DNA from: an uncultured Myxococcales bacterium
GTDB taxonomy: Bacteria > Myxococcota_A > UBA9042
Direction of reading: 5' to 3'
Length of the DNA: 64,000 nucleotides
Assembly: GCA_903842345.1 (NCBI GenBank)
Contig: CAIMLR010000030.1
Coordinates: forward strand, 1 to 64,000
The notes under the pieces were generated by a model. That model was not told where the DNA came from. It saw only the letters and a program-made list of their open reading frames with translations, and searched no databases. Shown one piece after another: positions 229-63,172 of the stretch. The position numbers were made by a program, and so were the translations under genes. Position 1 is the first letter of the stretch, and each line of letters opens with the position of its first letter.

Positions 229-1953
<1,725 letters not shown>

Positions 1954-1975
1954 TCCAAAGTTGCCGCGGGGGCTA

Positions 1976-3010: not shown

Positions 3011-3034
3011 GGGACTCCTTGGGCGGGAGCGTCG

Positions 3035-3772
3035 TCACCAAGAGCGAAGCCAGCCGCCGTCGCAGGCGATCGCCTGCCCTGTGATGTACGCCGCCGGTTG
3101 CGACGCCAGAAATGCCGCCAAAGCAGCAAACTCGTGAGGCTCGCCCATGCGGCGCGCGGGCACCTGGGCAGCGATGTGCGCATCCGTGATCCCGAGCTGC
3201 TCCATCCGCGACGTGCGCGTGAAGCCAGGCAGGAGCGCGTTCACCGTGATCCCATCGCACGCAACCTCGTCGGAGAGCGACTTCGTGAGGCCCAACAGGC
3301 CGGCGCGCAACGCGTTGGAGACGGTCAGGGCCGGCATCGGCTCTTTCGCGGCGACTGACGTCACGAGCAGGATGCGTCCCCATTTCTGCGCGCGCATCCC
3401 CGGCAGCACCGCCTGAATCGTGTCGATGGCGCTCAGAAAGAGGCTCTGGAAGCCGCTTTGCCACGCCTCGTTCGTCACTTCGGCAAAGAGCGCCTTGGCC
3501 GGCCCGCCGGTATTGACGCACACGATGTCGATGCCGCCGAGCGCGCCTGTCGCCCGTTCGACAGCGGTTCGTCCCGTCCCCGGCGCATCCAGATCGAGCG
3601 CGAACGCCACCTCCGCGCCGATCGCCTCGCGCGTCGTCTCAATCCGCGCCGGATCCCGGCTGACGATCGCCACGCGCGCGCCCTCGCGGACCAGCGCCTC
3701 CGCAACCGCCCTGCCCAATCCCGCCGAAGCGCCGAGCACCAACGCCCGCTTGCCTGAGAGCCCCAAATCCAT
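3035..3772 (-). CDS. SDR-family oxidoreductase of the atypical BKR-like group
   Basis: A 245-residue Rossmann protein with the dinucleotide site GASAGLG (residues 14-20) and the C-terminal SDR signature (YITGQAIACDGG). The classical catalytic YxxxK is missing: where ordinary FabG-like SDRs have YxASKAG, this protein has TVSNALRAGLLGLTKSL. The usual NNAG is NTGGP. This combination is known in a subgroup annotated as 3-oxoacyl-ACP-reductase-like whose reaction is uncertain. It starts 15 bases after the KMO stop with a GGAGG ribosome site, placing it in the kynurenine operon. Whether it acts on a kynurenine derivative cannot be told from sequence. Confidence 0.8.
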   Translation of the reverse strand: MDLGLSGKRALVLGASAGLGRAVAEALVREGARVAIVSRDPARIETTREAIGAEVAFALDLDAPGTGRTAVERATGALGGIDIVCVNTGGPAKALFAEVTNEAWQSGFQSLFLSAIDTIQAVLPGMRAQKWGRILLVTSVAAKEPMPALTVSNALRAGLLGLTKSLSDEVACDGITVNALLPGFTRTSRMEQLGITDAHIAAQVPARRMGEPHEFAALAAFLASQPAAYITGQAIACDGGWLRSW

Positions 3773-3787
3773 CTGCAGAACCTCCGG

Positions 3788-29663: not shown

Positions 29664-29822
29664 GGCGGCAACTCGCGTCGGTTGGGGCGACGCGCGAAGT
29701 AACCTAGCGGCGCCGCGCGCTTTTGTCACGTGCTGAAGCGGGAGCGACAAGAATTCCCGCGGGTAGCGAATCCGCGGTGGGATGGCCGCCGTCTTCGTGT
29801 TACCCTTTGCAGCGGAGGGATT

Positions 29823-32800
29823 TTGCGCCGAGAGACCGCCAAGCCACCGGGGAATTGCAGGACGCAGCGGCGATTCTCCGCGGTTTTTTTGGCGATTTTT
29901 CCGCTGATTCTGCTCGTGGCGTGCGGCGATGGCGCGACGGCCGGCACGACTGGCGACCTGACGGACGCGACGAGCGATTCCAACGCCGCGGACCTCGCGG
30001 GCAAGGACGCTGCCCTCGATCTGGCCGCGTCCTCGACGCCGAGCCTCGGCGCGGGCGAAACGCCACTCGCGGTGCTGATTGACCCGGACCAAGGGCCGAC
30101 GAGCGGCCTGCAGGTCGTGACGATCCAGGGGCAGTTCCTCGGCCACGTGCAGACCGTGCTGTTTGGCGAAACGCCCGCGCTGCAGGTCGATGTGCAGGAC
30201 GATGGTCTGCTGCAGGTCGTGGCGCCGCCGCATCCGTCGGGCGTTGTCGACGTGACGCTGCGCGTCGCGCCGGATCCCAAGGCCAAGGCGATTCCCGACG
30301 GCAAGATCGTCAAGGGCTACCGCTACGTCGGCAAGGTGGAAGTCACGGCGGTCGCGCCCGCGAGCGGTCCGGCGCAAGGCGGCACGGCGCTGACGATTTC
30401 CGGCAACGGCTTCACCGCGCAAACGCAGTTCGTCGTCGGCCACCGGCTGGCGCTGCTGCCGAGTGTGATTGACGAACACACCGCGACGGTCCTCACGCCG
30501 CCGGGTCAAACGGGCACGGTCGCGGTCGCAGCGGCGAACGCGGATGGCAGCGGCCAGCTGGAAAACGCGTTCACCTACCATCAACCGCCGCTGCTGGAGA
30601 AAGTGACGCCCGCGGTGCTGCCGTTCAAACCGACGGGCGGCGGGCAAATCGTGCTGCAGGGCCATGGCCTGTCGGGCGCGCTGCTGAAGGTCTGGCTGAC
30701 GGGCGCCAATGGCGCGATCGCCGCGGACGTGGTCGCGACGGACGGTGAGACGCTTGTGGCGAAACTTGGCCTGGAGCCGGCGTCCGGTGCGTACGACGTC
30801 AGCGTGCAACAAGCCGATGGCGTGGCGATGCTGCCGCAGGCGCTTGCGCTCGTGGACATGCCGCTCAAGGGCGCGTCGCCGACGGACACGCTGCCGCCGT
30901 GGGCGCTGTGGACCGTGACGCCTTCCGCGCAGCCGGTGAATCAGCTCGCGCCGGTGCTGCTTGGCGTTTCCGGGCACGCCCTGCCCGCGCAATGGCAGCA
31001 GGCGCAGGTGGCGTTTGGCATGCTGCCCGCCAAGGTGCTGAGCGCGACGGTCGATGCCGATGGCGCGGGCGCGACGCTGGAAGTGCAGCCGCCGGTCACG
31101 CCGGAGACGAACCTGCCGCAGAGCGTGAACGTGGACGTGCTGGTGGGCAACCACACCGTGGAGAAGACGCTGGGGTTTCAGTACCTGCCGGCGAGCCTGC
31201 ACATCGACGCGATGGCGCCCCAGCAAGTGGCGCCGGCAGGCGGGACCGCGTTCACGCTGACGTGGTCGCCGCATTTTGCCGGTCAAGCCCAGCCCGCGGC
31301 GGTGCGGATCGGCGCGCTGCCGGCGAGTCAGTTGCACGTGACCGGCGCGGGTGCGCTCACGGGCGTCGCGCCGCCGGGGGCGCCGGGGCCAGCGGACGTC
31401 ACGCTGATTCTGGCCGATGGCACGCAGGCGACGCTGTTCCACGGCGTGCAGTATGTGGGCGCCGAGCACGCGATCTACGCCGTGCTGCCGGCAGTGGGCG
31501 CGCAGGCGGGCGGGACTTGGTGCAACGTGATCGGCGAAGGCCTGGATGGCCTGCACGCCGTCCGCTTCAACGGCGCGCTGGCGACGGACGTCAAGGTCCA
31601 TGACGGCGGCTGGGCCACGCTCCGCACGCCACGCGGCGATCCTGGCCCCGCGGACGTCGAGGTGATGTGGAGTCCGACGACGCGGCGGACCTTGGCCAAT
31701 GGCTTCACCTATTTTGACCCCAAGGCCGGCAACGGCGGCACGTGGGGCGCGACAATCGGCGAATCGCTGAACGTCACCGTCGTGCGCCGCTCGGACTCGA
31801 CGACCGCGATTCCCGGCGCGCTCGTCATCGCCACGTCCGGCGCGACGACGTGGCAAGGCTTCACCGACGACCGCGGCCAAATCACCTTCTCCGGTCCGGG
31901 CATGGCCGCGCCGGTCAACGTCCACGCGTCCAAGAATGGGTTCACCGCCGGTTCGCTCATCGCGCTGTCCGCGGAGAACGCGACGATTCGCCTCAGTTCC
32001 ACAACGTCCTCCAGCGGCAACGGCGGCGGCGACCAGCCCGTCGCACCGCCCAACGGCACCATCACCGGCACCGTGCTCGACGCGGAGAAATACACCGTCC
32101 TGCCCGCTGGCACGTGCGGCAGCGATACGGTGAGCGGCGTCAACTGCCTCCCCTGCACCAGCGACGCGGCGTGCGGCAAAAACGCGAGCTGCGAGCTCAT
32201 CAATCTCGCCGACGCGACGACGGCGAGCGACGGCGGCTCCTGCGCAGCCGTGTGCGTCAGCCTCACCGACTGTCCGGACGGCTTCACCTGCAGCCAATTC
32301 GGTGCGGGCAGCGACGCGCGCTGGCGCTGCCGCCCCCGGGTCGGCGATTCGCAAGTCCGCTGCGAGCCCGCGTCGCCCGGCATCTACGGCAGCGGCTCGC
32401 CCCAACCGACGGGCATCGTCGACGCCGCGGGCAACTACGCGCTCAGCGTCACGCCCGGCGCCACCGCCGTCATCTGCCGCAGCGGCTACGTGGACAGCCA
32501 CACGGGCGACTTTGTGGCGCTCGCGCTTGGCGTCACGCGCAACCTCTTCACCAATCCCGGCCAGACCGTGACGGGCGTGGCCGTGCACGTGCGCGTGCCG
32601 CTGAACCGGGAAATCCGCGTGCACATGGTGGCGCTGCCGATGGGTCCGGACACCGACGGCGATCAGCGGAGCGTCGTCGCGGCGATCGACCTGGGCGCGG
32701 ACGGCTACATTCCGATGGGCCAGACGGCGACCAAGCAGAAAACCGACACCCTGCTCCTGACCGGCCAGCCGAGCGATGCGCTGTTCCAGGACGACGGCGC

Positions 32801-34214
32801 GAGCCTGCGCTACGAATTCTACGGCGGAATTGCCACGAGCTACGGCGGGCCGCCGATGTCGAGTTCAAGCGCACCGGGCCGCACGGTCGTGGGCTTGGAA
32901 CACGCCGCAGTGTGGCATCCGGGCGCGCTGGAGCCCGTGACGGCCAAGACCGCGCCGGGGGCGTTGCACGCTTTTGCCACGGCGGGTGAAGCGCGGGTGG
33001 CGGTCGGCGACGGCGGGCACATCGCCAGTTGGACGGGCGCGGATTTCACGGTCCAGGCGAGCCCGACGGCCAAGCAGCTCAACGCGGTATGGCTCGATCC
33101 GGCGACGGCGGGGCTGAACGGCTGGGCAGGCGGTCAGGATGGCGTGCTGGTCCGCCGAACGCCGCTGGGTTGGACGCTCTGGCCGCAGGGGCTGGGCAAG
33201 TCGGTCGTGGCACTGCAAGGCCGCAACGCCGACGACGTCTGGGCGCTGCACGAGGACGGCAGCCTCCACCATTGGAGTGGCGACGCGGCGGGCAAGTGGC
33301 AGGCCATCCCGGGACCGATGGCGCCTGCCGGTCAGCCCGTGGCATTCCACGCGCTGGGACTGCTGACCGGCAACGGCTTGCTTCTCGCGGGCGCCGGCGG
33401 CGCGCTCTGGCTGGGCAAGCCGATCGTCAACACCAACAACTTCGTCTGGCTGGTCCAGGCCAGTGGCACGTCGGCGGCGATTCGCGCGATTCTGATGCTG
33501 CCCGACGGCAGCGCCTGGCTGGCCGGCGATCGCGGCTACCTCGCGGCAATGGACGGCAACGGCGTGGCTGGCGTGAATGCCGGCACGTTCAAGAACCTGC
33601 TTGGCCTCTACGCCGCCGCGGACGGCAGCATCCACGCGGTCGGCCAGACCGGCACGTGGGTGCGCGTGCTGGGCAATGGCAAGGTCGAGGATCACAGCGT
33701 CGCCGACCTGCCGGTGGAACTGCGCGGCGTGCTGCCGACGTTTGACGGCGGGCTCGTGGCCGCCGGCGAGCCGGTCGTGGAAATGGGGCCCTACCTGGAG
33801 ATGCCCTACCTCACGCAGCCGATGGCAAACGCCGTGCTCGGCCAGACGCTCGATTGGATCGCCGCCCCGGGCCACGCGCCGACGCTGAATCTCATCCGGA
33901 TCGCCGACGCGACGTACACGACGCGCTGGGAGATCTACCTCCACGGCAACGCGATGCACGCCGATCTGCCTGATTTTCCGGCGCTGGCGCAATTCAGCCC
34001 GCTGCCGGCGGGTCAGCTCTACGTGCGGCACTGGCGAATTCTCGCGCCGCAGCTGGACATCGACGCGCTGAATCCCAAGCTGATGAGCCAGGCGTACTGG
34101 GTGTCGTGGGCCTACAACACGACCGTCGTGCAGTCGCCGATGGCCAAGGCCGCGCCGTTCAACCCGCAGTTGCCTCCGCCTGACGTGCCGACGCCGATTC
34201 CGTGGCCCAAGTAG
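29823..34214 (+). CDS. Giant IPT/TIG lipoprotein with propeller C-terminus
   Basis: 1463 residues. I choose the TTG at 29823 because GGAGGG lies 4 bases before it and it places a standard lipoprotein signal (lipobox LVAC, Cys34); an upstream GTG would add about 30 implausible residues. After a Thr/Asp/Ala tether come five to six IPT/TIG Ig-like repeats (about 80-650; for example VAPASGPAQGGTALTISGNGF). Next is a carboxypeptidase-regulatory-like domain (PGALVIATSGATTWQGFTDD), then a Cys-rich insert (CGSDTVSGVNCLPCTSDAAC). After about residue 1010 there is a region of short repeats with WLAGDRGYLAAMDG and WAGGQDGVLVR, typical of a Ycf48/WD-type propeller. It is likely surface exposed and binding- or adhesion-related; no catalytic motif is seen. 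Confidence 0.82.
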   Translation: MRRETAKPPGNCRTQRRFSAVFLAIFPLILLVACGDGATAGTTGDLTDATSDSNAADLAGKDAALDLAASSTPSLGAGETPLAVLIDPDQGPTSGLQVVTIQGQFLGHVQTVLFGETPALQVDVQDDGLLQVVAPPHPSGVVDVTLRVAPDPKAKAIPDGKIVKGYRYVGKVEVTAVAPASGPAQGGTALTISGNGFTAQTQFVVGHRLALLPSVIDEHTATVLTPPGQTGTVAVAAANADGSGQLENAFTYHQPPLLEKVTPAVLPFKPTGGGQIVLQGHGLSGALLKVWLTGANGAIAADVVATDGETLVAKLGLEPASGAYDVSVQQADGVAMLPQALALVDMPLKGASPTDTLPPWALWTVTPSAQPVNQLAPVLLGVSGHALPAQWQQAQVAFGMLPAKVLSATVDADGAGATLEVQPPVTPETNLPQSVNVDVLVGNHTVEKTLGFQYLPASLHIDAMAPQQVAPAGGTAFTLTWSPHFAGQAQPAAVRIGALPASQLHVTGAGALTGVAPPGAPGPADVTLILADGTQATLFHGVQYVGAEHAIYAVLPAVGAQAGGTWCNVIGEGLDGLHAVRFNGALATDVKVHDGGWATLRTPRGDPGPADVEVMWSPTTRRTLANGFTYFDPKAGNGGTWGATIGESLNVTVVRRSDSTTAIPGALVIATSGATTWQGFTDDRGQITFSGPGMAAPVNVHASKNGFTAGSLIALSAENATIRLSSTTSSSGNGGGDQPVAPPNGTITGTVLDAEKYTVLPAGTCGSDTVSGVNCLPCTSDAACGKNASCELINLADATTASDGGSCAAVCVSLTDCPDGFTCSQFGAGSDARWRCRPRVGDSQVRCEPASPGIYGSGSPQPTGIVDAAGNYALSVTPGATAVICRSGYVDSHTGDFVALALGVTRNLFTNPGQTVTGVAVHVRVPLNREIRVHMVALPMGPDTDGDQRSVVAAIDLGADGYIPMGQTATKQKTDTLLLTGQPSDALFQDDGASLRYEFYGGIATSYGGPPMSSSSAPGRTVVGLEHAAVWHPGALEPVTAKTAPGALHAFATAGEARVAVGDGGHIASWTGADFTVQASPTAKQLNAVWLDPATAGLNGWAGGQDGVLVRRTPLGWTLWPQGLGKSVVALQGRNADDVWALHEDGSLHHWSGDAAGKWQAIPGPMAPAGQPVAFHALGLLTGNGLLLAGAGGALWLGKPIVNTNNFVWLVQASGTSAAIRAILMLPDGSAWLAGDRGYLAAMDGNGVAGVNAGTFKNLLGLYAAADGSIHAVGQTGTWVRVLGNGKVEDHSVADLPVELRGVLPTFDGGLVAAGEPVVEMGPYLEMPYLTQPMANAVLGQTLDWIAAPGHAPTLNLIRIADATYTTRWEIYLHGNAMHADLPDFPALAQFSPLPAGQLYVRHWRILAPQLDIDALNPKLMSQAYWVSWAYNTTVVQSPMAKAAPFNPQLPPPDVPTPIPWPK

Positions 34215-36513: not shown

Positions 36514-39500
36514 TTAGTAGCGGACGCGCCCGGTCAGGTGCCGCAGCTTCAACTGCGCCATCGCGCGGTTGATCCGCTCGCGCTCTTCATTGGCTTCAGC
36601 CAGCCGCTGGTTCGTGTCGGCTTCCGCCAGTTCCAGGCTCGTCACCGCGCCGGCCACGTACGCCTTGCCGGTGATATCCGCGCCGCGTCGGGCAATGGTC
36701 GTCTGCGCCGTCGCCAGCCGGAGCGCGTCCTCCGCCGACTCCAAATCCAGCGCCGCCTGCCGCACCTGGCTCTCCAGTTCCGAGTCGGCCTTTTCCAACT
36801 CCTGCTGCAGCCGCACCACGGACGCGCGCCGCTCCCGGGCGTCCGCATACCGCACGCCCCGGTCAAAGATCGGCAGCACCAGGTTGAGGCTCGCCTGCCA
36901 AGTCACGTACTCCGGGGCAAACGCCTTGGTGTCGCTCGCACGCGCATACGCCGAGCCCGCGAGCACGGGCAGCCACCGCAGCTCCGCCTCCCGCGTCAAC
37001 GCCTGCGCCGCCTGCACGGATTGCCGCCGCGCCAGCAGGTCCGGACGCTGCGCCCTCGCCTGCTCAATCCACTCCGGCAACGTCCCCGGAATCGGCCCCG
37101 CATCAGCCGCCGGCGCCAGACGCTCCGGCACCGCCGCGTGCGTCAGGATCGCCACGATTTGCAGCAGCTGCTTCTGCGCCTGCCGGGCGTGCAGCATGTC
37201 CTGCTCGGCGCGGTTGCGCTCCACTTGCGCCCGCAGGGACGGCAGCTCCGCCTCCGTGCCCTGCCCTTTGCGAATGTTGGCGATCGCGATGCGACGCTCC
37301 GCCAACTCCACCGCGCGGTCCGCCGCGGCGATCAGCCGGTCCAAGCCCTGGTAGTTCAGCCACACGTTGGTCAGCTGGTACGCGATCTCGCGCTTGGCCG
37401 CCTCCAGCCCGGTCCGCTGGGCCTCCAGGCCCTTGTCCATCGCGTCGGCCGCCAGGATCGGCGCCATCGCGAAGATCGTTTGGTCCAGCGTCAGCACCGC
37501 TGACACCGTATCCTGCCGCTGGATGAGCGTCGGCGGTCCCAGCATCGCCAACTGCGCCGCCGTGAGAGGCGGCAGGCCAAACACGCCGGTCAGCCCGCCC
37601 GCCATCTGGCCGATGTCAAACTTCTGCTCCGCGGAGTTGTGCGCGTACGTGCCCACCGCCTTGATGTCGGGCAGCCATGCCGTAAAGATGCGGCGGCCCT
37701 GCGCGCCGGCTTCCGTCAGCTTGGCCTGCGCCACTTGCAGATCGCCATTGCGCTCCAGCGCCTGCTGGATCGCCGTCTCCAGCTTCAAGCCCGTCGGCAC
37801 CTGCGCCTGCGTCGCCGTCACGTCCAGCTGCGGCGGCACATCGGCGTCGGCGCGCGTCGCCGGCAACAGCACCGCACCGGCGAGCAGGAGCGTCAGCAGC
37901 GTACCGCCATGGCCCTCCAGACGCGCCAGCGGCTCGGCCTGCAGCGGCTCGAGCACCGTCGTGCCCACAAAGTCCTTGCGCGCCGGCGGCGGCGCCTTCT
38001 TGCCCGTGAAGAAGCCGGCGATGCGCGTCGGCAGTTGCCGCAGGGAATCAAACCACAGGAACACCGACGGCAGCACAAGCAGCGTCAGGAACGTGGACGT
38101 TATCACGCCGCCAATCACGGCAATCGCCATCGGCGAGCGGAATTCTGAACCCGGGCCATTGTTGGTCGCCGTCGGCAGCATGCCGAGGATCATCGCCGCC
38201 GACGTCATCAGGATCGGCCGCAGCCGCTTGCGCCCCGCGTCGATCACGGCGTCGATCGCCGATAGCCCGTCGCGCTGGTTTTGCAGCGCTGCGTCCACAA
38301 GCAAAATGCCGTTCTTGGTCACCAGCCCCATCAGCAGAATCACGCCGATCATCGCGCCCATCGACACCGTGCGGTCCGTCAGGAACAGGCCGACAATCGC
38401 GCCAATCAACGCGAGCGGCAGCGCCAGCATGATGGTGAACGGGTGCAGGAAGGACTCAAACTGCGCGGCGAGGATGAGGAAGATGAAGATCACGCCGAGC
38501 AGGAGCGCGATGCCCATGGAGTCGTTGGACTCGCGCATCTGCTTCACCTGGCCGTCGAGCTTGTAGTAGCCGTCGCCGTGGAACTTGTAGGCGATGAGGT
38601 TCGGCTCCAGATCGCCCAGCACTTCGCCCAAAGATCGCGAGTTCGGCGCGGCGGTCACGCTGATTTGCCGCGTGCGATCCTGCCGTTCAATGACCTGCGG
38701 GCCGGCCTGCGGCTCCACGCGCGCCAGGAGCGACAGCGGCACAAAGCCCTTTGGCGTCGCGATCTGCACTTCCAGCAGCTTCTGGATCGCCAACCGGTCG
38801 TCATCGCGCAGCCGCACGCGGATCTTCACTTCCTTGGTGCTCTGCGCGGACACCCGCAGCTTGCCCGCCTCCTCGCCTTCCAGCGCCGCACGCAGCGTCC
38901 GGGCGATCATCGCGACGGGAATGCCCAGATCCGCGGCTTTCTCGCGGTCGATGCGGACAATCTGCTCCGGTCGGCCCGGCGAATAGCCCACCTGCACGTC
39001 TGACAAGCCCGGCACCTTGCGCGTCATCGCCTCAATCGCCGCGGCGTCGCGCTCCAGATTGGCCATGTCAGAGCCGCGCACCTGGATTTGCAGCGGCGCG
39101 CCCGACGGCAGGCCTTCGACAAACGCCGGCGGCTGAATCGAGATCTTCGCGCCCGTCCCCTCCAGGCACTTCCGCGTCCACGTCTTCAGGTCCTCCAGCG
39201 TTTCCTTGCGCTCGTTCTTCTGGTTCGCGACCACGCGCCACTGCACCTTGTTCACTTCCCCATTTGGCCCGAGTTTGGCGTAGACCGTGATGATGTTCTT
39301 GTTTTCCAGCATCTTCCGCTCGGCCGCCTCGGTCCGCCGCGCGGTTTCCGGCAAGGACGCGCCGGGTTCCAGCTCGATTTCCACCATGAACTGGCCGCGA
39401 TCCTCCGGCGCCATGAAGTCGGCGCCCATCAGGCTGACCAGACCAAACGAGCCGATCAGCACCACAAGCGCCAGCAACACCGTGATGACGCGATGGCGCA

Positions 39501-41079
39501 CGGAAAGCTTGAGCGTCAGGATGTACGCGTCCTCCATCGCCTTGTGAATGCCCTCAAAGAACCGCACGGGCAACGCGCGCTGCTTGGAGTGGTCGATCTT
39601 GACGGCCAGCTTGGAGGAGAGCATCGGGTCCAGCGTGAACGCGACAAAGAGCGAGAGAAGCACCGCGGCGGAGACCGTCATGCCGAACTGCTTGAAGAAT
39701 TGCCCCACGACGCCTGACATGAACGCGACGGGCATGAAGACCGCGACGATGGTCAGCGTCGTTGCGAAGACCGCCAACGCGATCTCGCTCGTGCCCTTGG
39801 ACGCTGCGGTGAACGGATCATCCCCCGCTTCCAGGTGTCTGAAGATATTTTCCCGGACCACCACCGCGTCGTCGATCAGGAGGCCAATCGCCAGCGACAG
39901 GGCCAGCAGCGTCATCATGTTCAGCGTGAAGCCGAGCATGCTCATGATCCAGAACGTGCCGATGACCGACGTCGGCAACGCGAGCGCGGAGATAAAGGTC
40001 GAGCGCATGTCCAGCATGAACAGCATGATGATGAGAATCGCCATCGCGCCGCCGAACACGATGGCGATCTCCACCTCGTGGGCGTTCTCGCGGATGAACG
40101 TGCTCTGGTCGATGATGAGCTTGGGCTTGTAGCCGTCGGGCAGGACGCGGTTCTTGACCAGGTCGTCCAGCTTCTTGCCGACCAAATCGGACACTTCAAT
40201 CGTGTTGGTGCCCGACTGCTTGATGATTTCAAACGCGACCGCGTCGTTGCCATTGGCGCGGATCGACGTGCGCGGCTCGACGAAGTCGTCCTTGATATCG
40301 GCGATGTCGCGCAGGTAGACCGGCGTGCCGGCCGGCGTCGTCGCCATCACGATGTCCGCCACTTCCTCCGCCGTACCCAGGTCGCCCGCCATGCGCACGC
40401 TGATTTCCTGCTTGCCCGACTCAAAGTGCCCCGCCGGCACGTTCAGGTTCTCCGCACGCAGCTTGTCGACAACGGCCGTCAGCGGCAGATTCAGCGCGTC
40501 GAGGCGACGGCGATCCAGCTCCACGCGCACTTCCCGGTCGCGACCGCCGATGACTTCCAGCGCCGCCACGCCCGCCACGCGCTCGATCTGCGGCTTGAGG
40601 ATGTCTTCCGTGATGCGCCGCAGCTGTTCCTTGGACATGCCCGCGCCCGTCGCGACGTACGTGCGGATCGGCGTCGCGCCCATGTCCACGCGGCGGATCG
40701 ACGGCTCGCGCACTTCCGTGGGCAAGTTGCTGCGGATGGCCGCCACGCGCTCGCGGACTTCCTGCGTCGCGCGGTCAATGTTGGCGGAGAGCTTGAACAG
40801 CACGACGACGGTCGACACGGACTCGCGGGAGAACGAGCGGATGGTGTCGAGATCATTGACGCTCGACACGGCATCTTCCAGCGGCTTGGTGATCTGCTGC
40901 TCGATCTCGCTCGGCGACGCGCCCGGGTAGATCGTCGTGATGGTCACGATGGGAAACGTGACGTCCGGAAACAGGTCAGTGCCGAGCGAGCGGATGCTCA
41001 TCACGCCCATGACCATGAGGGCCAGCATGAGGACGACGGTGAAGACCGGGCGCCGGATCGCGACATCAGAGAGCGTCAT
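36514..41079 (-). CDS. RND efflux pump fused to a TolC-family outer-membrane channel
   Basis: A single uninterrupted 1521-residue frame. Residues 1 to about 1030 are a complete HAE1-type RND pump: N-terminal MTLSDVAIRRPVFTVVLML, the TM4 proton-relay Asp pair in GLLIDDAVVVREN, and the TM10 Lys in VTKNGILLVD. A linker rich in Pro/Lys follows, then a signal-like hydrophobic segment (GGTLLTLLLAGAVLLPATRA, about 1058-1078). Residues 1080-1521 are a TolC/OEP protein with the two long coiled-coil hairpins (EAAKREIAYQLTNVWLNY; LESQVRQAALDLESAEDAL) and no other signal. An RND C-terminus is cytoplasmic, so the extra segment would carry the TolC part to the periplasm, possibly followed by signal-peptidase cleavage. 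Downstream of its MFP and TetR in one operon. Confidence 0.93.
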   Translation of the reverse strand: MTLSDVAIRRPVFTVVLMLALMVMGVMSIRSLGTDLFPDVTFPIVTITTIYPGASPSEIEQQITKPLEDAVSSVNDLDTIRSFSRESVSTVVVLFKLSANIDRATQEVRERVAAIRSNLPTEVREPSIRRVDMGATPIRTYVATGAGMSKEQLRRITEDILKPQIERVAGVAALEVIGGRDREVRVELDRRRLDALNLPLTAVVDKLRAENLNVPAGHFESGKQEISVRMAGDLGTAEEVADIVMATTPAGTPVYLRDIADIKDDFVEPRTSIRANGNDAVAFEIIKQSGTNTIEVSDLVGKKLDDLVKNRVLPDGYKPKLIIDQSTFIRENAHEVEIAIVFGGAMAILIIMLFMLDMRSTFISALALPTSVIGTFWIMSMLGFTLNMMTLLALSLAIGLLIDDAVVVRENIFRHLEAGDDPFTAASKGTSEIALAVFATTLTIVAVFMPVAFMSGVVGQFFKQFGMTVSAAVLLSLFVAFTLDPMLSSKLAVKIDHSKQRALPVRFFEGIHKAMEDAYILTLKLSVRHRVITVLLALVVLIGSFGLVSLMGADFMAPEDRGQFMVEIELEPGASLPETARRTEAAERKMLENKNIITVYAKLGPNGEVNKVQWRVVANQKNERKETLEDLKTWTRKCLEGTGAKISIQPPAFVEGLPSGAPLQIQVRGSDMANLERDAAAIEAMTRKVPGLSDVQVGYSPGRPEQIVRIDREKAADLGIPVAMIARTLRAALEGEEAGKLRVSAQSTKEVKIRVRLRDDDRLAIQKLLEVQIATPKGFVPLSLLARVEPQAGPQVIERQDRTRQISVTAAPNSRSLGEVLGDLEPNLIAYKFHGDGYYKLDGQVKQMRESNDSMGIALLLGVIFIFLILAAQFESFLHPFTIMLALPLALIGAIVGLFLTDRTVSMGAMIGVILLMGLVTKNGILLVDAALQNQRDGLSAIDAVIDAGRKRLRPILMTSAAMILGMLPTATNNGPGSEFRSPMAIAVIGGVITSTFLTLLVLPSVFLWFDSLRQLPTRIAGFFTGKKAPPPARKDFVGTTVLEPLQAEPLARLEGHGGTLLTLLLAGAVLLPATRADADVPPQLDVTATQAQVPTGLKLETAIQQALERNGDLQVAQAKLTEAGAQGRRIFTAWLPDIKAVGTYAHNSAEQKFDIGQMAGGLTGVFGLPPLTAAQLAMLGPPTLIQRQDTVSAVLTLDQTIFAMAPILAADAMDKGLEAQRTGLEAAKREIAYQLTNVWLNYQGLDRLIAAADRAVELAERRIAIANIRKGQGTEAELPSLRAQVERNRAEQDMLHARQAQKQLLQIVAILTHAAVPERLAPAADAGPIPGTLPEWIEQARAQRPDLLARRQSVQAAQALTREAELRWLPVLAGSAYARASDTKAFAPEYVTWQASLNLVLPIFDRGVRYADARERRASVVRLQQELEKADSELESQVRQAALDLESAEDALRLATAQTTIARRGADITGKAYVAGAVTSLELAEADTNQRLAEANEERERINRAMAQLKLRHLTGRVRY

Positions 41080-41157: not shown

Positions 41158-42318
41158 TCAGTGCGTCGGCGACGGATCCGCCGCGGCGGGCACTGCGGCC
41201 TTGGGCATCACAGTGTTGGACGGCAGCATGTCGCCTTCGCGCCACGTCGCGCCGGGATTGGCGATGACGAGGTCGGTGACCGCGAGGCCCGCCGTCACCA
41301 GCAGCTTGTCTTTTTCCGTGCGCAGGAGCGTCACCGCGCGGCGCACCAGCTTGCCGTTCTCAACGACGAGCACCGCCGCCGTGTCGCCCGTCAGGAGCGC
41401 CGTCGACGGAATCGCCACGTTGGGCTGCGCGTCGATGAGGACGGCGCCTTCCACGTACGATCCGGCGATCAGCTTGCCATCGGGATTGGGCACGGACGCT
41501 TCCATCGGCACGCGGCGCGTCATCGGATCGGCGCTGGGAATCAGCATGTCGATGGTGCCGGTCGCCTTCACGCCGGTGTCAGACTCCAGCTGCAGCGTGA
41601 TGCCGGCCTTGAGGCGCGAGGCATCGCGATCGGCGATGTTGGCGGTGAACTTGAGCGTCGTGAGCCGTTCAATGCGGAAATACGGATTGCCCGGCGCCGC
41701 GAAGAAGCCCGGCGCTGAAGGCGCACGCACGACGACGCCGCCAATGGGCGCGATGAGCTTGGTCTCCTGCTTCATCAGCTCGACAACCTTGCCCTGCGCT
41801 TCCGCCTGCGCGATCGACGCCGCGGAAAGATGCGCCTGGCCGCCCGCCATCACGACCTGTTGCTCCGTCGCCGCGCCCGCCGCCACCAGGTTCTTGGAGC
41901 GCCGCAGCGCATCCGTCGCCATCACGTCCTGCGCCTTTGCCGCCGCCATGCCCGCGCGGACCTGCTCCGCTTGCGCCTCGACGTCGCGTTGGTCGATGCG
42001 CGCCAGCACTGCGCCCGCTTCGACGGTGTCGCCCTTCTTGACAGGCACTTCCACCACGCGCCCCGGCAGCTTGAACGCCAAATCCACTTCCGCTTCCGGA
42101 CGCAGCGTCCCGCCGACGTGCAGCAGCTCCTTGAGCGGTCCCGGCTCCGGGTACACGACCTTGGGCGCCACTTTCACGTTGGAACTCGCTTCGCGGGCCC
42201 GGCCTTCCTCGGCAATGGCGGCCTTCGTCTCGATCTTGCTCTTGATCTTGATGGCAACGACGCCGAGGACGGCGAGCACGAGCACAACGAGGGAAATGAT
42301 GATCAGGCGAACTTTCAT
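41158..42318 (-). CDS. RND membrane-fusion (periplasmic adaptor) protein
   Basis: 386 residues: an N-terminal inner-membrane anchor (IIISLVVLVLAVLGVVAI), a lipoyl half (GRVVEVPVKKGDTVEAGAVLARID), a coiled-coil hairpin (AEQVRAGMAAAKAQDVMA to IAQAEAQGKVVELMKQE), the second lipoyl half (LIAPIGGVVVRA), and beta-barrel and membrane-proximal domains (IPSTALLTGDTAAVLVVENGKLVRR). It links the RND pump to the outer-membrane channel, which here are one polypeptide. It starts 22 bases before the TetR stop region on the same transcript and ends 78 bases before the pump. Confidence 0.93.
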   Translation of the reverse strand: MKVRLIIISLVVLVLAVLGVVAIKIKSKIETKAAIAEEGRAREASSNVKVAPKVVYPEPGPLKELLHVGGTLRPEAEVDLAFKLPGRVVEVPVKKGDTVEAGAVLARIDQRDVEAQAEQVRAGMAAAKAQDVMATDALRRSKNLVAAGAATEQQVVMAGGQAHLSAASIAQAEAQGKVVELMKQETKLIAPIGGVVVRAPSAPGFFAAPGNPYFRIERLTTLKFTANIADRDASRLKAGITLQLESDTGVKATGTIDMLIPSADPMTRRVPMEASVPNPDGKLIAGSYVEGAVLIDAQPNVAIPSTALLTGDTAAVLVVENGKLVRRAVTLLRTEKDKLLVTAGLAVTDLVIANPGATWREGDMLPSNTVMPKAAVPAAADPSPTH

Positions 42319-42340: not shown

Positions 42341-43051
42341 TCACGGGACGTCGGCAAGCGAAGGCGCCGGCGCGGGAGCGTCAGCAGCAGGTTGGGCGGG
42401 GTCAAAGGGAGCGGGCGAAAACGGCAGGGCGGACCGGATGATGGTCGCCACTTCCGGCGGTTGGCCCGCGGCGATCAGCGCGCGGAAGGCCATGAGGTGC
42501 TCGGCGGCGAACGGCGGACGATGCTCGCGGATGATGCGGCGCGCGTACATGAAGACGACGCCCGTGGCCATTGTCGCGGCGAATTCTGGATCCATGACGC
42601 CCGCGAGTTGCGGAAACGCCTGATTGTGCAGGCTAACCGACTCGCGCATGTGCTGGAGGATGGAGTCAATGAACTCGTCCTGCATGGACGCGTACGGCGT
42701 GCCCACCGCGCCGTCCATCAGCATCGCCAGCGGCCGGCGATGCACCCACAGGAAGTCCATGAACTGGCGGTCCGCCTCGGCGACAAGGGCAAATTCGCCG
42801 CGCCGAAAGGCCTCGCAAATCGCATCGTCCTGACCGCGCAGCAGCGCGAGGAGCTGGTCGAGGAACGCGCGGGCAATCGCCACGTACGCCGCCTCCTTGG
42901 AGGCAAAGTGCAGGTAAAACGCACCCTTGGAGGCACCCGCGCGATCGGTAATGTCGCTGACACGCGCCACAGCCAAACCGCGCGTCGCGAAGATCTCGGT
43001 CGCGGCGTCAACAAGTTGCTGCTTCAGGTGCGGATTGGCGGCGCGGGCCAT
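42341..43051 (-). CDS. TetR-family regulator of the efflux operon
   Basis: 236 residues. The helix-turn-helix is at about residues 10-55 (LVDAATEIFATRGLAVARVS, DITDRAGASKGAFYLHF), with the characteristic GAFYLHF end. The C-terminal ligand-binding domain is longer than usual and ends in an Ala/Pro-rich tail. As first gene of the TetR-MFP-pump operon, it probably represses its own promoter and is released by pump substrates. The gap upstream is packed with TGAC/GTCA palindromes. AGGGA precedes the ATG at 43051; the open frame extends 57 codons further but runs through those operators and is rejected. Confidence 0.9.
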   Translation of the reverse strand: MARAANPHLKQQLVDAATEIFATRGLAVARVSDITDRAGASKGAFYLHFASKEAAYVAIARAFLDQLLALLRGQDDAICEAFRRGEFALVAEADRQFMDFLWVHRRPLAMLMDGAVGTPYASMQDEFIDSILQHMRESVSLHNQAFPQLAGVMDPEFAATMATGVVFMYARRIIREHRPPFAAEHLMAFRALIAAGQPPEVATIIRSALPFSPAPFDPAQPAADAPAPAPSLADVP

Positions 43052-43080
43052 GTTACATTCCCTGAACTGGATGGGGCGAA

Positions 43081-43095
43081 TGACGCGGCGCGTCA
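43081..43095. promoter_or_regulatory. Perfect palindrome TGACGC-GGC-GCGTCA
   Basis: A 15-base inverted repeat with 6-base arms in the leader of the TetR-MFP-pump operon, 30 bases before the TetR ATG. The same motif, with one difference in an arm, occurs in the fadI promoter. It is likely a TetR-type operator. Confidence 0.5.
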
Positions 43096-43116
43096 CGTCA
43101 GCGAAGGTAGGGATAA

Positions 43117-43162
43117 CTGACCACGAAGTCAATGACCAGCGGGTCAGTGACTGAGTGGTCAG
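43117..43162. promoter_or_regulatory. 46-bp composite TetR operator region
   Basis: Arms 43117-43137 and 43142-43162 are inverted repeats matching at 18 of 21 positions around AGCG. Each arm itself contains a TGAC-N6-GTCA palindrome (TGACCACGAAGTCA; TGACTGAGTGGTCA), and the centre reads TGACC-AGCG-GGTCA. This suggests two adjacent TetR dimers. It lies between the TetR gene and the divergent cupin gene and may control both. Confidence 0.6.
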
Positions 43163-43206
43163 CGAAACAGCGCGCTCCATCCATTCAGAATTGCGGAGGT
43201 TTTCAG

Positions 43207-43608
43207 ATGAGCGAAGCGGCAAAAATCATCGAAAAGCTGGCATTGGCGCGTCATCCGGAAGGCGGCTGGTACCGCGAAACGTGGCGGCATGACGCGGGCG
43301 AGGGGCAGCGCGGCGCGGGCACGGCGATCCTGTATCTGCTGCAGCGCGGGGAGAAGTCCCGGTGGCATCGCGTCGACGCGGCGGAGGTGTGGCACTTCTA
43401 CGCGGGCGCGCCGCTGCGGCTGTGGCAATCCGATGATTTGCAGGCGTCGACGAGCGAAGTCCTGGGGGCCGACGTGCTGGGCGGCGAGATGCCGCAGCTG
43501 TTGGTGCCGCCGCACGTGTGGCAGGCCGCGGAATCCTTGGGCGACTGGACGCTCGTCGGCTGCACGGTGTCGCCCGCGTTCGAGTTCGCCGGCTTTGAGA
43601 CGGCGTGA
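43207..43608 (+). CDS. Cupin-domain protein (DUF985)
   Basis: 133 residues of the DUF985 cupin type: N-terminal LALARHPEGGWYRETWR, then SRWHRVDAAEVWHFYAGAPLRL carrying the metal-binding His residues, and a C-terminal AFEFAGFE. Stand-alone cupins of this group bind a metal or a small carbohydrate-like ligand; no reaction is known. It is divergent from the TetR gene and shares its operator region, so its expression may follow that of the efflux pump. Residues upstream in the open frame are not cupin-like, so the ATG at 43207 is used. Confidence 0.85.
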   Translation: MSEAAKIIEKLALARHPEGGWYRETWRHDAGEGQRGAGTAILYLLQRGEKSRWHRVDAAEVWHFYAGAPLRLWQSDDLQASTSEVLGADVLGGEMPQLLVPPHVWQAAESLGDWTLVGCTVSPAFEFAGFETA

Positions 43609-57292: not shown

Positions 57293-60200
57293 CTATTTGC
57301 ACACCGGCCCGTCGATGCCGCTGACCGTGACGATCGCGGAGTACGGATACGTCCCCGATTTCGTCCAGCTCGAGCCTGAGTTGCTGCTGGACCACGCGCC
57401 GTTGCCGTCGTTGTTGGTCCACATGAAGCCGTTGTTGCTGTCGGCGGCAAAAAGGACCGCGTAGTAGGTCACGCCGGCGGTGACGGAGATGCCGCCGTAG
57501 GAGAAATCGTACGAACCCCAGCTGTACTGGTCCGTCACGGTCTGCGAGGACGCGCCGACCGAACTGCCGCCCGCGCCGGGCAATCCGCCGCTGTAGATCC
57601 GCACCGTGGTGTTGACCTTGTTGCCGCTCCACCGCAGCAACTGGAGGCCGTTGATCGATGCCAACGTGCCGGTCTTGCTTGGCGTGAACGGGACGGCGAG
57701 CCAGTTTGTCGCGTCGTACTTGTTGTTCACGGACAACGCGGTGCCTTTGGCCTGGGACGCCGCATTCATCTGGCCGGGACCGCTGCAGTCGTCGTCAATG
57801 CCGTTGCCGCAGACGTCCACGGCGCCGGGATTGACGCTCGCCTTGGTGTCGTCGCAGTCGCCGCCGCCCTTGGCGCAACTGGCGGGGCTGACGTACGGGA
57901 TGCTGGAATCGCAATAGCCGTCCTTGTCGTCATCGCAGCCCGTGTCGGTCTTGCCGCTGCAGCCGTTGTCCAGGCCGTCGCACTTCTCCGGCGCGCCGGG
58001 ATAGACGGACGCCGAGCTGTCATTGCAGTCCGTCTTGCCCTTGGTGCAAAGCGTGACGGTGACGCCGTTGGCATACGTCGCACCCAGGCGGCACCAGCCG
58101 TCGCCGTCGTCGTCACACCCTTCGTCGACCTTGCTGCTGCAATTGTTGTCGATGTTGTCGCAGATCTCGACCGCGCCCGGGTTGATCGCCGCGTTGCTGT
58201 CGTTGCAATCGCCCTTGCCCTTGTTGCAGGACTTGGGCGTGCCGACGATGGCGAGCGCTGAATCGCAGTAGCCGTCGAGATCGTCGTCGCAGCCCTCGTC
58301 CGCCGTGCCGTTGCAGTTCTGGTCGAGGTCGTCGCACGACTCCGTCGCGTTCGGGTGGATGGTCGCGTTGGTGTCATTGCAGTCGCCGCCGCCTTGCGGG
58401 CACGTGCTCGGCTTGCCAACCGTGGTGATGGCCGAGTCGCAGTAGCCATCGGCGTCGTCGTCGCAGCCGGGATCAAAGACGCCGTTGCAGTCGTTGTCGA
58501 TGGCGTCGCAGATGTCCGCCGCGCCCGGGTGGACGGAGGCGTCCGCGTCCGCGCAATCGCCGCCGCCCTTGGGGCAGACCGCCGGCGTGCCGACAACCGT
58601 CTTGGTCGCCGTGCAGTAGCCGTCCTTGTCGCCGTCGCAGCCTTCATCGGTCGCGCTGTTGCAGTTGTTGTCCAGGTTGTCGCACTGCTCGGTCGCCTTG
58701 GGGCTGACGGACGCGTCGTAGTCGTTGCAGTCGCCGCCGGCAGCGACAAAGACCTGGAATGCCGTCGAAAGCGTGACCGGCGAGCACTTGTAGCCAAAGT
58801 CGCCGACCCACGTGGAGATGTGGCCGTACGTGCCCGTGACGACGGAGCCGACGGGGCACACCCGCTCGAGGAGCCCCGTGCCGCCGCCGTCAAACAGGAG
58901 CGGCGAGTTGGGCAGCATGTCGTCCCAGCCGCTGTACTGGTTGGCGAGGCGGGACATCGTCGCGCAATGCCCGCCCAGACGCGAGACCGAGAGGTGCGAC
59001 GCATCGGCGCCATTCTGGTCGCCCCACTCGGAGACGAGGACTTCGTTGTTGGGGCAGGAGCCGCCAAACGTCGGACCGCCGCCGTTGCTGACCGTCGTGG
59101 CGTTGCCGGAGATACCCAAGCTGCCGTCAGCCATGAGCTTTTTGCACATGAGCGTGAAGGAAACCATGTAGACCGGGCTGGAGAGGAACTGGCCGCTCAC
59201 GCCGAACGCGATGTAGCCGGTCGGGCAGTTGCTGTCGAACGCGACGCCGCTGGTGTCCGAGCCAATTGTCGCCATCGCCTGCGTCTTGGTCGTGTCCACG
59301 ACCGCCGATCCGTACGTCTGCTTGGAGTTGGGCGAGTTGCAGTAGCAGACTTTGGCGCCGCCGTAGCCGTCCCCGTCGATGTCGTAGTAGTAGTTCTTGC
59401 AGCCGATGGCGCCGTCGCTGTCGGTCAGTCCGTCGCAGTTGTCGTCGTACGCCGTGGCGCAGGATTCCGCGGCGCCGGGGTTGATCGCCGCGTTCGTGTC
59501 CGCGCAGTCGCCGCCGCCGTGGATGCACGTGGTCGGCGTGCCAACGGTGTTCATGTTGGCGTCGCAGTAACCGTCCTTGTCGTCGTCGCAGCCTTCGTCG
59601 ACAACGCCGTTGTTGTTGTTGTCCTTGCCGTCGCAGACTTCAAAGCAGCCGCCGCTGCTGATCGGGCCAACCGTCGCGTCGTTGTCATTGCAGTCGCCGC
59701 CGCCGTACGGGCAAATCTTCGGCAAGCCGACGGTAATCCGCGTGCCGTCGCACCACTTGTCGCCGTCCTTGTCGCACTGCTCGTCCGTGCCGCTGACGCA
59801 GTTGTTGTCCAGGTCGTCGCACAGCTCGGTCATGCCTGGGTTGATCTGCGCGGACGTGTCGTCGCAGTCGCCGCCGCCGCTCGGGCAGATCGCCGGCGCG
59901 CCGACGGTGGCCATCGCCGCGTCACAATACGCGTCGCCGTCGTCGTTGCAGCCCTCGTCCGTGCCGGAGATGCAGTTGTTGTCCTTGCCGTCGCACACTT
60001 CCACGGAGCCCGGCTTGATCGCCGCGTTGGTGTCGTCGCAGTCGCCGCCGCCGCTCGTGCAGACCTTGGGCGAGCCGATGGTGACCATCTTGCTGTCGCA
60101 GAACGTGTCGCCGTCGTCGTCGCAGCCCAGATCGGTCGTGCCGTCGCAGTTGTTGTCAAAGTTGTCGCAGAGCTCAATGTGATTGGGGGAAACTGCGGTG

Positions 60201-63172
60201 TTCAAGTCGTTGCAGTCGCCGCCGCCGTGCGCGCAAATCTTCGGCGTGCCCAACGTTGTCATGTTGGCGTCGCACCAACCGTCGCCGTCGTCGTCGCAGC
60301 CGAGGTCGATGGCCTTGTCGCAGTCGTTGTCGAGGTCGTCGCAAATCTCGGTCGCGCCGGGATGCACGCTCGCGTGGAGGTCATCGCAGTCGCCGCCGCC
60401 CTTCAGGCAAGCGCCGGAGCCGATGATGATGACCTTGTTCGCAGCGCAATACCCGTCGCCGTCGACGTCGCAGCCGGGATCCGTCACGCCGTCGCAATCG
60501 TTGTCGAGCAAATCGCACGAGTCCGGATGCGTCGGGTGGATGGTGTACTCGTTGTCGTTGCAGTCGCCGCCGCCGTAGAGGCAAACGTACGGCGCGCCGA
60601 CGGTCACGCGGTTGCTGTCACACCAGCCGTCGCCGTCCTGATCGCAGTTCACGTCGATCTTGCCGTTGCAGGCGTTGTCAAAGCCGTCGCACAGGTCGGG
60701 CGCGCCCGGGTAGACGGAGATATTCTTGTCGTTGCAGTCGCCCGTGCCGTTCTTGCAGACCGCCGGCGTGCCGGCGATGAGCGCGCCAAGCACGCACCAG
60801 CCGTCGCCGTCCGTGTCGCAGCCGTCGTCCACGCCGTTGGCGCAGTCGTTGTCGATGTCGTCGCACACTTCCGCGGCCTTGGGGTGGATGCCGGCGTTGC
60901 TGTCGTCGCAGTCGCCGCCGCCGTTCACGCAGCCCGCGCTCACGCCCACCGCGCCGGCGCAGTAGCCGTCGCCGTCCAGATCGCAGCCGGGGTCGGTGAC
61001 GCCGTCGCAGTTGTCGTCCTTGCCGTTGCAGCTGTCGACCGCGCCGGGATTGATGGCCTTGTCGCCGTCGTTGCAGTCGCCGCCGCCGCTCGGGCACGCC
61101 GGGAACTTGGCATCGCTCGGCACGGTCGTGGCGCAGTAGCCGTCCGCGTCCGCGTCGCAGCCCTCGTCGGTCTTGCCGTCGCAGTTCTGGTCGGCGTTGT
61201 CGCAGATTTCCGTGCCCTTCGGGTTGGTCAGAGGATCGGCGTCGTTGCAGTCGTTGCCGCCGTTCGGGCAGGACGCGCTTACGGCGGCGTTCCCCACGCA
61301 GTAGCCGTCGCCGTCCTGGTCGCAGCCGGGATCGGTCACGCCGTCGCAGTCGTTGTCCAAGCCGTCGCAGATCTCCTTGGCGCCGGGGTGCGCAGCCGCG
61401 TGCGTGTCGTCGCAATCGCCGCCCCCGTTGGGGCACGCGACCGACGTCGGATCGACCGGCAACGTCGCATCGCAGTAGCCGTCCTTGTCGTCGTCGCAGC
61501 CGGGATCGGTCGCGCCGTCGCAGTTGTCGTCCACGCCGTTGCACACTTCCACGGCGCCCGGGAAGATCGCGGCGTTGGTGGGCGAGCAGTCGTCGGCGTT
61601 GGCCACGCCGTCGCCGTCGATGTCGGGGTCGATGCAGTCCGCGATCCCGTCCTTGTCGGTGTCGGCAAAGCCCTCGTCGGTCTTGCCGTCGCAGTTGTCG
61701 TCCAAGCCGTCGCAGATCTCGGTCTGGCCGGGATAGACCTTGGCGTTGGTCGGCGAGCAGTCCTCAGCGTTGGCCACGCCGTCGCCGTCGATGTCCGGGT
61801 CGACGCAGTCCGCGATCCCGTCCTTGTCGGTGTCCGCAAAGCCTTCGTCGATCTTCTTGTTGCAGTTCTGGTCCTTGCCGTCGCAGATCTCCACGTTGCC
61901 CTGGAAGACGCCGCCGTCGGTCGGCGAGCAGTCCTGCACGTTGGAGACGCCGTCGCCGTCGAGGTCGTTGTCCACGCAATCGGCAATGCCGTCGCCGTCC
62001 GTGTCCTTGTAGCCTTCGTCGGTCTTGCCGTCGCAGTTGTCGTCGGCGCCGTTGCATTTCTCGCTGTTGCCCGGGAAGACCTGCGGGTCCATCGGCGCGC
62101 AATCCGCGGCGTTGAGCGCGCCGTCGCCGTCCATGTCGGGATCGTCGCAGTCCGGGATGCCGTCCTTGTCCAGATCGGGCATGCCTTCGTCCGTCTTGCC
62201 GTTGCAGTCGTCGTCAATGCCATTGCAGATTTCAGGCGACGGGATCAACGCGTCGCACAACTCCAGGCCGCCAGCGCCGCAAACGCGCGCGCCTTTGCAC
62301 AGGCCGTCGGAGTTGGTGTTGTAGCAGGTCGTCTTGGCGGAAATCGCGATCGCCGCGCCGTTGCACTCGCACGCCCCGGGCGTGGTGCAGACGAGGTTCT
62401 GGCCCGAGACGCCGTAGCTGTAGGAGCACTTGTAGTCAGTCGGGCAGTCCGCCGTCTTGGCGCACGGCGTGGCGCAGAAAAAGCCCGCGGCGCCATGCTT
62501 GATGCACAAGCTGCCGGGCGTCAGCGCGTCGCACGCCTCGTCGGTGATGCAGGGCGCGCATTCCGCGGTCCATTTCGGCATGCAGGTCGGCGTGATTGCA
62601 GTCTTGTCGCAGGCCCAGCCTCCCGGACAGCAACTGCCGGCGCACGCGGGGGCGCAGCGCTTGCCCTCGGGCGCGACCGCGCACACGCCGGAGGTGCAGT
62701 CGCCGTCGCTCTGGCAAGTCGCGCCCGCCGCGCCCGCGGTCGGATTGGCGGCAAACTCACACGCAGTCGTTGGCACATCGGGCGCAACGTCGATGGCATC
62801 CGTCGCGCTGTCCGGCGCCGCGTCGGTCGCGCCATCCGCGCTGTCGACTTCGTCCGCGATTGCATCCGTGAGCGCGTCCTGATCCGTCGCATCCGGCGGC
62901 GACACCGCGTCGGTCAGGGCATCCTCAAGAATTTCACTGTCCGCGGCGTCTGTTGCCGCCGTGTCGGAGGCCGCGCCATCGGAAGCGTCATCGGTCTTGG
63001 CAATGTCGCCAGTCGTCTGTGGGGTGTCGGTTGCGACGGCGGCATCCTCACCGGTGGCGCCTGCCTGCTGCCCACACGCCGCGAGGGCAACCAGCGCGAG
63101 AACGCCGATCTGATTGCGCAATCCGTTGATACGCCGACAGATCTGCCCCAGACACCAGCTTTGTTCGCGCAT
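57293..63172 (-). CDS. Giant MopE-type lipoprotein with repeated metal-binding motifs
   Basis: 1959 residues. Lipobox LAAC (Cys33) is followed by a 95-residue Asp/Ala/Thr tether and a Cys-rich head (C...CTSGVC.., CCPGGWAC). Then come about 23 copies of the putative metal-binding motif CDGxDDNCDGxxDEGC, the first five with TSP3-like calcium Asp boxes (DKDGIADCVDPDIDGDGVAN) and most of the rest paired with GGGDCxD. One non-Cys beta domain interrupts the array between modules 17 and 18 (GSDTSGVAFDSNCPTGYIAF onward). A C-terminal beta-sandwich of about 150 residues ends the protein. It resembles MopE-family surface copper/calcium binders. The opposite strand holds a 1623-residue open frame that I reject as a codon-bias shadow. 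Confidence 0.92.
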   Translation of the reverse strand: MREQSWCLGQICRRINGLRNQIGVLALVALAACGQQAGATGEDAAVATDTPQTTGDIAKTDDASDGAASDTAATDAADSEILEDALTDAVSPPDATDQDALTDAIADEVDSADGATDAAPDSATDAIDVAPDVPTTACEFAANPTAGAAGATCQSDGDCTSGVCAVAPEGKRCAPACAGSCCPGGWACDKTAITPTCMPKWTAECAPCITDEACDALTPGSLCIKHGAAGFFCATPCAKTADCPTDYKCSYSYGVSGQNLVCTTPGACECNGAAIAISAKTTCYNTNSDGLCKGARVCGAGGLELCDALIPSPEICNGIDDDCNGKTDEGMPDLDKDGIPDCDDPDMDGDGALNAADCAPMDPQVFPGNSEKCNGADDNCDGKTDEGYKDTDGDGIADCVDNDLDGDGVSNVQDCSPTDGGVFQGNVEICDGKDQNCNKKIDEGFADTDKDGIADCVDPDIDGDGVANAEDCSPTNAKVYPGQTEICDGLDDNCDGKTDEGFADTDKDGIADCIDPDIDGDGVANADDCSPTNAAIFPGAVEVCNGVDDNCDGATDPGCDDDKDGYCDATLPVDPTSVACPNGGGDCDDTHAAAHPGAKEICDGLDNDCDGVTDPGCDQDGDGYCVGNAAVSASCPNGGNDCNDADPLTNPKGTEICDNADQNCDGKTDEGCDADADGYCATTVPSDAKFPACPSGGGDCNDGDKAINPGAVDSCNGKDDNCDGVTDPGCDLDGDGYCAGAVGVSAGCVNGGGDCDDSNAGIHPKAAEVCDDIDNDCANGVDDGCDTDGDGWCVLGALIAGTPAVCKNGTGDCNDKNISVYPGAPDLCDGFDNACNGKIDVNCDQDGDGWCDSNRVTVGAPYVCLYGGGDCNDNEYTIHPTHPDSCDLLDNDCDGVTDPGCDVDGDGYCAANKVIIIGSGACLKGGGDCDDLHASVHPGATEICDDLDNDCDKAIDLGCDDDGDGWCDANMTTLGTPKICAHGGGDCNDLNTAVSPNHIELCDNFDNNCDGTTDLGCDDDGDTFCDSKMVTIGSPKVCTSGGGDCDDTNAAIKPGSVEVCDGKDNNCISGTDEGCNDDGDAYCDAAMATVGAPAICPSGGGDCDDTSAQINPGMTELCDDLDNNCVSGTDEQCDKDGDKWCDGTRITVGLPKICPYGGGDCNDNDATVGPISSGGCFEVCDGKDNNNNGVVDEGCDDDKDGYCDANMNTVGTPTTCIHGGGDCADTNAAINPGAAESCATAYDDNCDGLTDSDGAIGCKNYYYDIDGDGYGGAKVCYCNSPNSKQTYGSAVVDTTKTQAMATIGSDTSGVAFDSNCPTGYIAFGVSGQFLSSPVYMVSFTLMCKKLMADGSLGISGNATTVSNGGGPTFGGSCPNNEVLVSEWGDQNGADASHLSVSRLGGHCATMSRLANQYSGWDDMLPNSPLLFDGGGTGLLERVCPVGSVVTGTYGHISTWVGDFGYKCSPVTLSTAFQVFVAAGGDCNDYDASVSPKATEQCDNLDNNCNSATDEGCDGDKDGYCTATKTVVGTPAVCPKGGGDCADADASVHPGAADICDAIDNDCNGVFDPGCDDDADGYCDSAITTVGKPSTCPQGGGDCNDTNATIHPNATESCDDLDQNCNGTADEGCDDDLDGYCDSALAIVGTPKSCNKGKGDCNDSNAAINPGAVEICDNIDNNCSSKVDEGCDDDGDGWCRLGATYANGVTVTLCTKGKTDCNDSSASVYPGAPEKCDGLDNGCSGKTDTGCDDDKDGYCDSSIPYVSPASCAKGGGDCDDTKASVNPGAVDVCGNGIDDDCSGPGQMNAASQAKGTALSVNNKYDATNWLAVPFTPSKTGTLASINGLQLLRWSGNKVNTTVRIYSGGLPGAGGSSVGASSQTVTDQYSWGSYDFSYGGISVTAGVTYYAVLFAADSNNGFMWTNNDGNGAWSSSNSGSSWTKSGTYPYSAIVTVSGIDGPVCK

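Follow-up and report, generated by a model that had tools for sequence, protein, structure and literature searches.

The window, the whole 64-kb stretch of DNA that was analyzed, comes from a draft genome of 5.85 Mb. Reading its open reading frames reveals a single frame of 1521 codons on the minus strand (36514-41079) with no internal stop. In the Pfam search the pump domain is N-terminal (ACR_tran, residues 4-1010) and the channel is C-terminal (two OEP repeats), so that the frame runs from an intact HAE1 RND transporter into a full TolC/OEP protein, just as a preliminary description of this DNA had claimed. A gene for an adaptor and a TetR-family regulator lie upstream of the fused gene on the same strand. 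The features of the locus are as follows.

36514..41079, minus strand: fused RND pump and TolC-type channel, 1521 aa (ORF and Pfam; kept in 13 orthologues)
38050..41070, minus strand: HAE1-type RND transporter half, residues 4-1010 (ACR_tran; AcrB-type proton-relay residues)
37909..38049, minus strand: C-terminal tail of the RND half with the hypervariable cytoplasmic linker, roughly residues 1011-1057 (low identity within the genus)
37843..37908, minus strand: internal segment resembling a signal peptide, residues 1058-1079, GGTLLTLLLAGAVLLPATRADA (signal peptidase I cut predicted after ADA)
37789..37842, minus strand: 18-residue spacer DVPPQLDVTATQAQVPTG from the predicted cut to the first channel helix (junction alignment)
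36517..37788, minus strand: TolC/OEP channel half, residues 1098-1521 (two Pfam OEP matches; AlphaFold2; Foldseek to TolC/OprM)
41158..42318, minus strand: gene for the periplasmic adaptor (MFP), 386 aa, carrying the tip motif R-x3-L-x6-T (TIGR01730, 182.8 bits, above the cut-off)
42341..43222, minus strand: TetR-family regulator frame upstream of the adaptor (PF00440 at residues 70-111); its real start is probably downstream of the TTG

The pump half contains a complete ACR_tran domain, scoring 863 bits against a cut-off of 28 bits. Proton-relay residues of the AcrB type are present in TM4, TM10 and TM11, i.e. D403 and D404 (in GLLIDDAVVV), K922 (TKNGILLVDA), and R952 and T959 (KRLRPILMTS). 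The closest relative of known structure is MdtB. The full-length domain, the relay residues and the adjoining adaptor gene are shared with the HAE1 transporters AcrB, MexB and MdtB/C. Unlike those proteins, the window pump scores under the NCBIfam subfamily cut-offs, and its C-terminus is extended by a signal-like segment followed by a channel domain. Drug efflux is the predicted function of the fused system.

The two OEP repeats of the channel half score 141 bits and end at residue 1517. Residues 1040-1521 were modeled using AlphaFold2 with a mean pLDDT of 87.7, and a Foldseek comparison matched the modeled channel to TolC and OprM chains of known structure along almost their entire length, with a TM-score of about 0.75 by target length for the TolC chains. 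As modeled, the C-terminal half is a complete TolC-type channel. It has the two OEP repeats and the fold of TolC and OprM, but only about 17% sequence identity, and it differs from them in lacking its own start codon and in being produced as the C-terminal part of the pump protein. The same genome encodes a stand-alone OMF-MFP-RND operon (contig C45) with a homologous pump (36%) and channel (46%). There the three proteins are encoded by separate genes in another order, and the signal peptide of the channel is an ordinary N-terminal one.

A search for the same fusion in relatives found 13 full-length orthologues on intact contigs. Together with the window these give 14 sequences from three families of the class, and in all of them the pump and channel are fused in frame. 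Identity to the window protein is 86-88% within the genus, 61-63% within the family, and 58% for genome G034, which with G023 and G027 represents the two other families. Three of the orthologues, 86-88% identical, come from named MAG records of uncultured Myxococcales. The remaining matches (G003, G006, G015 and G020) were left out because contig ends cut within the gene or near the junction; G015 and G020 give the appearance of stand-alone channels, but these are really contigs ending at the junction. No version with split pump and channel was present among the orthologues on intact contigs. Each of the 14 fused genes has a cognate adaptor gene directly upstream.

The junctions, measured from TM12 to the first OEP helix, are 48-98 codons long and always in frame. 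Over the 14 sequences they total 1053 codons with no in-frame stop, compared with 12 and 15 stops in the other two forward frames, and their GC content by codon position (0.73/0.54/0.81) is of coding type. The junction frame is open far beyond chance. All these sequences derive from draft MAGs, and assembly or sequencing might in principle have wrongly joined two genes. Yet independent MAGs from three families yield the same fusion in 14 sequences, the linker lengths diverge while remaining in frame, and no stop or frameshift occurs at the junction of any intact orthologue. An artefact is therefore scarcely credible, and the fusion is conserved.

The channel could alternatively be translated separately from a start codon inside the linker, the open junction then being incidental. 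There are two in-frame GTG codons in the linker of the window gene, one of them behind a weak AAGG, and there is a GGAGG-ATG at 37910 (37908-37910, minus strand), but this ATG is out of frame and meets a TGA after five codons. The candidate in-frame starts mostly have no Shine-Dalgarno sequence. Neither a start codon nor a Shine-Dalgarno sequence is conserved among the orthologues, and that from G027 has no ATG, GTG or TTG between TM12 and the hydrophobic core. Internal initiation also leaves the complete absence of in-frame stops from the junctions unexplained. We consider it very unlikely; the two-gene loci with a hidden channel start that the preliminary description had envisaged were not found among the intact orthologues. 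The out-of-frame GGAGG-ATG is perhaps there by chance, or perhaps a relic of an old start of the channel gene.

Between the two halves the preliminary description had noted a signal-like hydrophobic 13th segment, and this is both present and conserved in the fusions. In the window protein the segment, residues 1058-1072 (37908-37864), reads GGTLLTLLLAGAVLL and runs into PATRADA/DVPPQ, where the slash marks a predicted cut past residue 1079, between 37843 and 37842 and thus close to the position near 37830 suggested earlier for the junction with its ADA-like site. Among members of the genus, linker identity is just 49-59%, compared with 91-94% for the pump and 80-83% for the channel. Across families the junction cannot be aligned almost anywhere, except for a hydrophobic core and then an AxA-type site. 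These sites are ADA, AQA, VDA, AVA, SHA, AHA, ALA, ATA, AGA, TIA and ASA. Sites of this type recur in at least three separate fusion lineages.

We defined a strict site by a simple −3/−1 motif rule, [AVSTG]xA/[DEQNAS]. Such a site lies just past the hydrophobic core in 23 of 24 fusions, against 22 of 259 (8.5%) hydrophobic segments taken from the RND portions of these proteins; the 24 fusions are related to each other, so the Fisher p-value for this comparison overstates independence and is indicative only. The single fusion without a strict site is that of G027, which has ASA/M. From the site to the first OEP helix there are 18 residues in the window protein and 2-21 in the aligned fusions, a range that overlaps the 4-13 residues found in stand-alone channels of the same genomes. 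Thus the signal-like segment and cut motif lie at the normal register for a channel, within an open frame that is conserved across families and flanked by an intact pump, channel and adaptor. Two features count against cleavage of a signal peptide here: several homologues have few positive charges in the n-region ahead of the core, and some cores exceed 20 aa, a length sufficient for a membrane anchor. A lipobox (signal peptidase II) reading was rejected, as cysteine is present only in some cores and is not conserved. A LepB-type Peptidase_S26 is encoded in the genome of the window.

Two readings of the junction had been offered at the outset, a precursor cut by signal peptidase and a permanent tether in which the 13th segment is an uncleaved transmembrane anchor, so that pump and channel are covalently joined and bridge both membranes. 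For the tether, hydrophobic stretches that a loose criterion puts at 21-32 residues could serve as anchors, the topology is consistent, and both pump and channel are trimers. The geometry is difficult, however. In MexAB-OprM the two membranes lie 23 nm apart; the pump domain measures 7 nm and the bridge formed by the adaptor about 6 nm, and pump and channel make no direct contact (PMC4754349). The N-terminal helix of TolC runs from the equatorial domain toward the outer membrane (PMC13082787), and the N-terminus of the channel is therefore even farther from the pump. The spacer, at most about 27 extended residues, is under 10 nm long, and about 2.5 nm in G291. On the dimensions borrowed from AcrAB-TolC and MexAB-OprM, it is too short to pass the pump and adaptor and reach a channel N-terminus at the equatorial domain, and a permanent tether is therefore unlikely.

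The adaptors point the same way. Their tip motif R-x3-L-x6-[ST] docks adaptors to channels (PMC4446572), and it is retained in 13 of the 14 fused loci, G023 having W in place of R. Canonical assembly is therefore expected, with no sign of a collapsed architecture. An uncut chain spanning both membranes seems quite improbable; with so short a spacer it would require an efflux architecture that no solved tripartite pump shows. The AxA-type site, conserved amid variable flanks, also counts against a tether. Given the short spacer and the conserved site, we favor the cleaved precursor over the permanent tether.

It is therefore likely that the gene encodes a polyprotein, in which the 13th segment acts as an internal signal peptide and a cut by LepB would free a normal channel in equal numbers (1:1) with the pump. 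The RND half would insert in the inner membrane, leaving its C-terminus on the cytoplasmic side. Residues 1058-1079 would then re-engage the Sec translocon as an internal signal peptide and carry the TolC half into the periplasm, where signal peptidase I would cut past ADA (residue 1079). The freed subunit would form an outer-membrane trimer and dock with the RND trimer via the separately encoded adaptor. The fusion would fix synthesis of pump and channel at 1:1, equal to their 3:3 ratio in the assembled machine. Translocation, cleavage, assembly and efflux are all predictions from sequence. Sequence alone does not separate cutting by signal peptidase from periplasmic proteolysis or from a mixture of cut and uncut forms. 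However, the conserved residues match the −3/−1 pattern of signal peptidase I and there is no conserved lipobox cysteine, and we give such processing only a slim chance. At the gene level the fusion is conserved, and its protein product is most probably a precursor that undergoes processing. A group of uncultured lake myxobacteria thus probably makes pump and channel as one precursor that is cut apart at the inner membrane.

There is precedent for such an arrangement in fbcH of Bradyrhizobium, the cytochrome b/c1 precursor. Like the window gene, it joins an inner-membrane protein and an exported partner in one chain with an internal signal sequence. It encodes part of a respiratory complex and its cleavage has been shown experimentally, whereas the window gene encodes a transport machine for which processing is predicted. 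RND proteins with a C-terminal OEP domain in one frame are annotated in Bacteroidota as CusA/CzcA-OEP fusions. These are heavy-metal (HME) pumps, whereas the window fusion is of HAE1 type. A literature search for RND-OMF fusions and fbcH returned nothing usable. While RND-OMF fusion itself is known in Bacteroidota, the conserved and correctly spaced internal cut site is new, as is the recurrence in Myxococcota.

That recurrence is seen in the distribution of the fusions. The channel of the window type (type 1) is restricted to the window's own class among the 379 Myxococcota genomes searched. Type 2 RND-channel fusions are found in Myxococcota at G009:C327, G011:C552, G014:C159, G017:C193, G019:C185, G118:C88, G129:C30, G291:C24 and G308:C773 (genome:contig). 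A third type, unrelated to the others, was found only in G011 in a class-level search (L047, G011:C190, ORF 1186-6351). Both further types likewise carry a hydrophobic core and then an internal AxA-type site. In the RND tree the type 1 pumps group in a single clade, every member of which is fused if its contig is intact, and their nearest unfused relative (G049) is 49% identical. Type 2 is interspersed with unfused relatives in which the pump and channel genes are neighbors, while type 3 stands apart. There were therefore at least three fusion events, type 2 representing one or several. In the channel tree, stand-alone channels of the OMF-MFP-RND operon, including the C45 copy, branch among the type 1 fused channels with weak support.

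Searching 192 Bdellovibrionota genomes for the channel returned over 100 matches. The open frames of those listed are about 326-508 aa, save one of 844, and there is therefore no RND fusion among them. A plasmid search using the whole fused protein gave no convincing fused match. Some RND matches have N-terminal extensions of 270-750 aa that resemble adaptor-pump fusions, but these are out-of-frame noise upstream of the normal start. Long open frames on contig C8 of the window's genome and C359 of G041 were also rejected as fusions; an in-frame stop lies between the pump and the channel, and the latter carries a signal peptide of its own. On C8 (G000:C8, L055, 976-5775), in another RND system, the genes for pump and channel directly adjoin each other in one frame with a single stop codon between them, possibly a pre-fusion arrangement.

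If the precursor reading holds, some bacteria build an efflux pump together with its outer-membrane channel in one chain, with coupled synthesis and a fixed ratio, and proteins annotated as RND-OMF fusions would be precursors rather than membrane-spanning tethers. The fused gene also offers a test of signal peptidase cutting at a segment that follows 12 transmembrane helices. The repeated fusions in Myxococcota suggest a selective advantage.

Three other long frames were observed in the window. That at 57293-63172 (minus strand, 1959 aa) has 21 copies of the PF11617 MopE-type putative metal-binding motif, and that at 10504-14136 (minus strand, 1210 aa) has Dicty_CTDC repeats and an InhA-like MAM domain at its C-terminus. 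The third, at 29730-34214 (plus strand, 1494 aa), has IPT/TIG domains and is overlapped by long open frames on the opposite strand.
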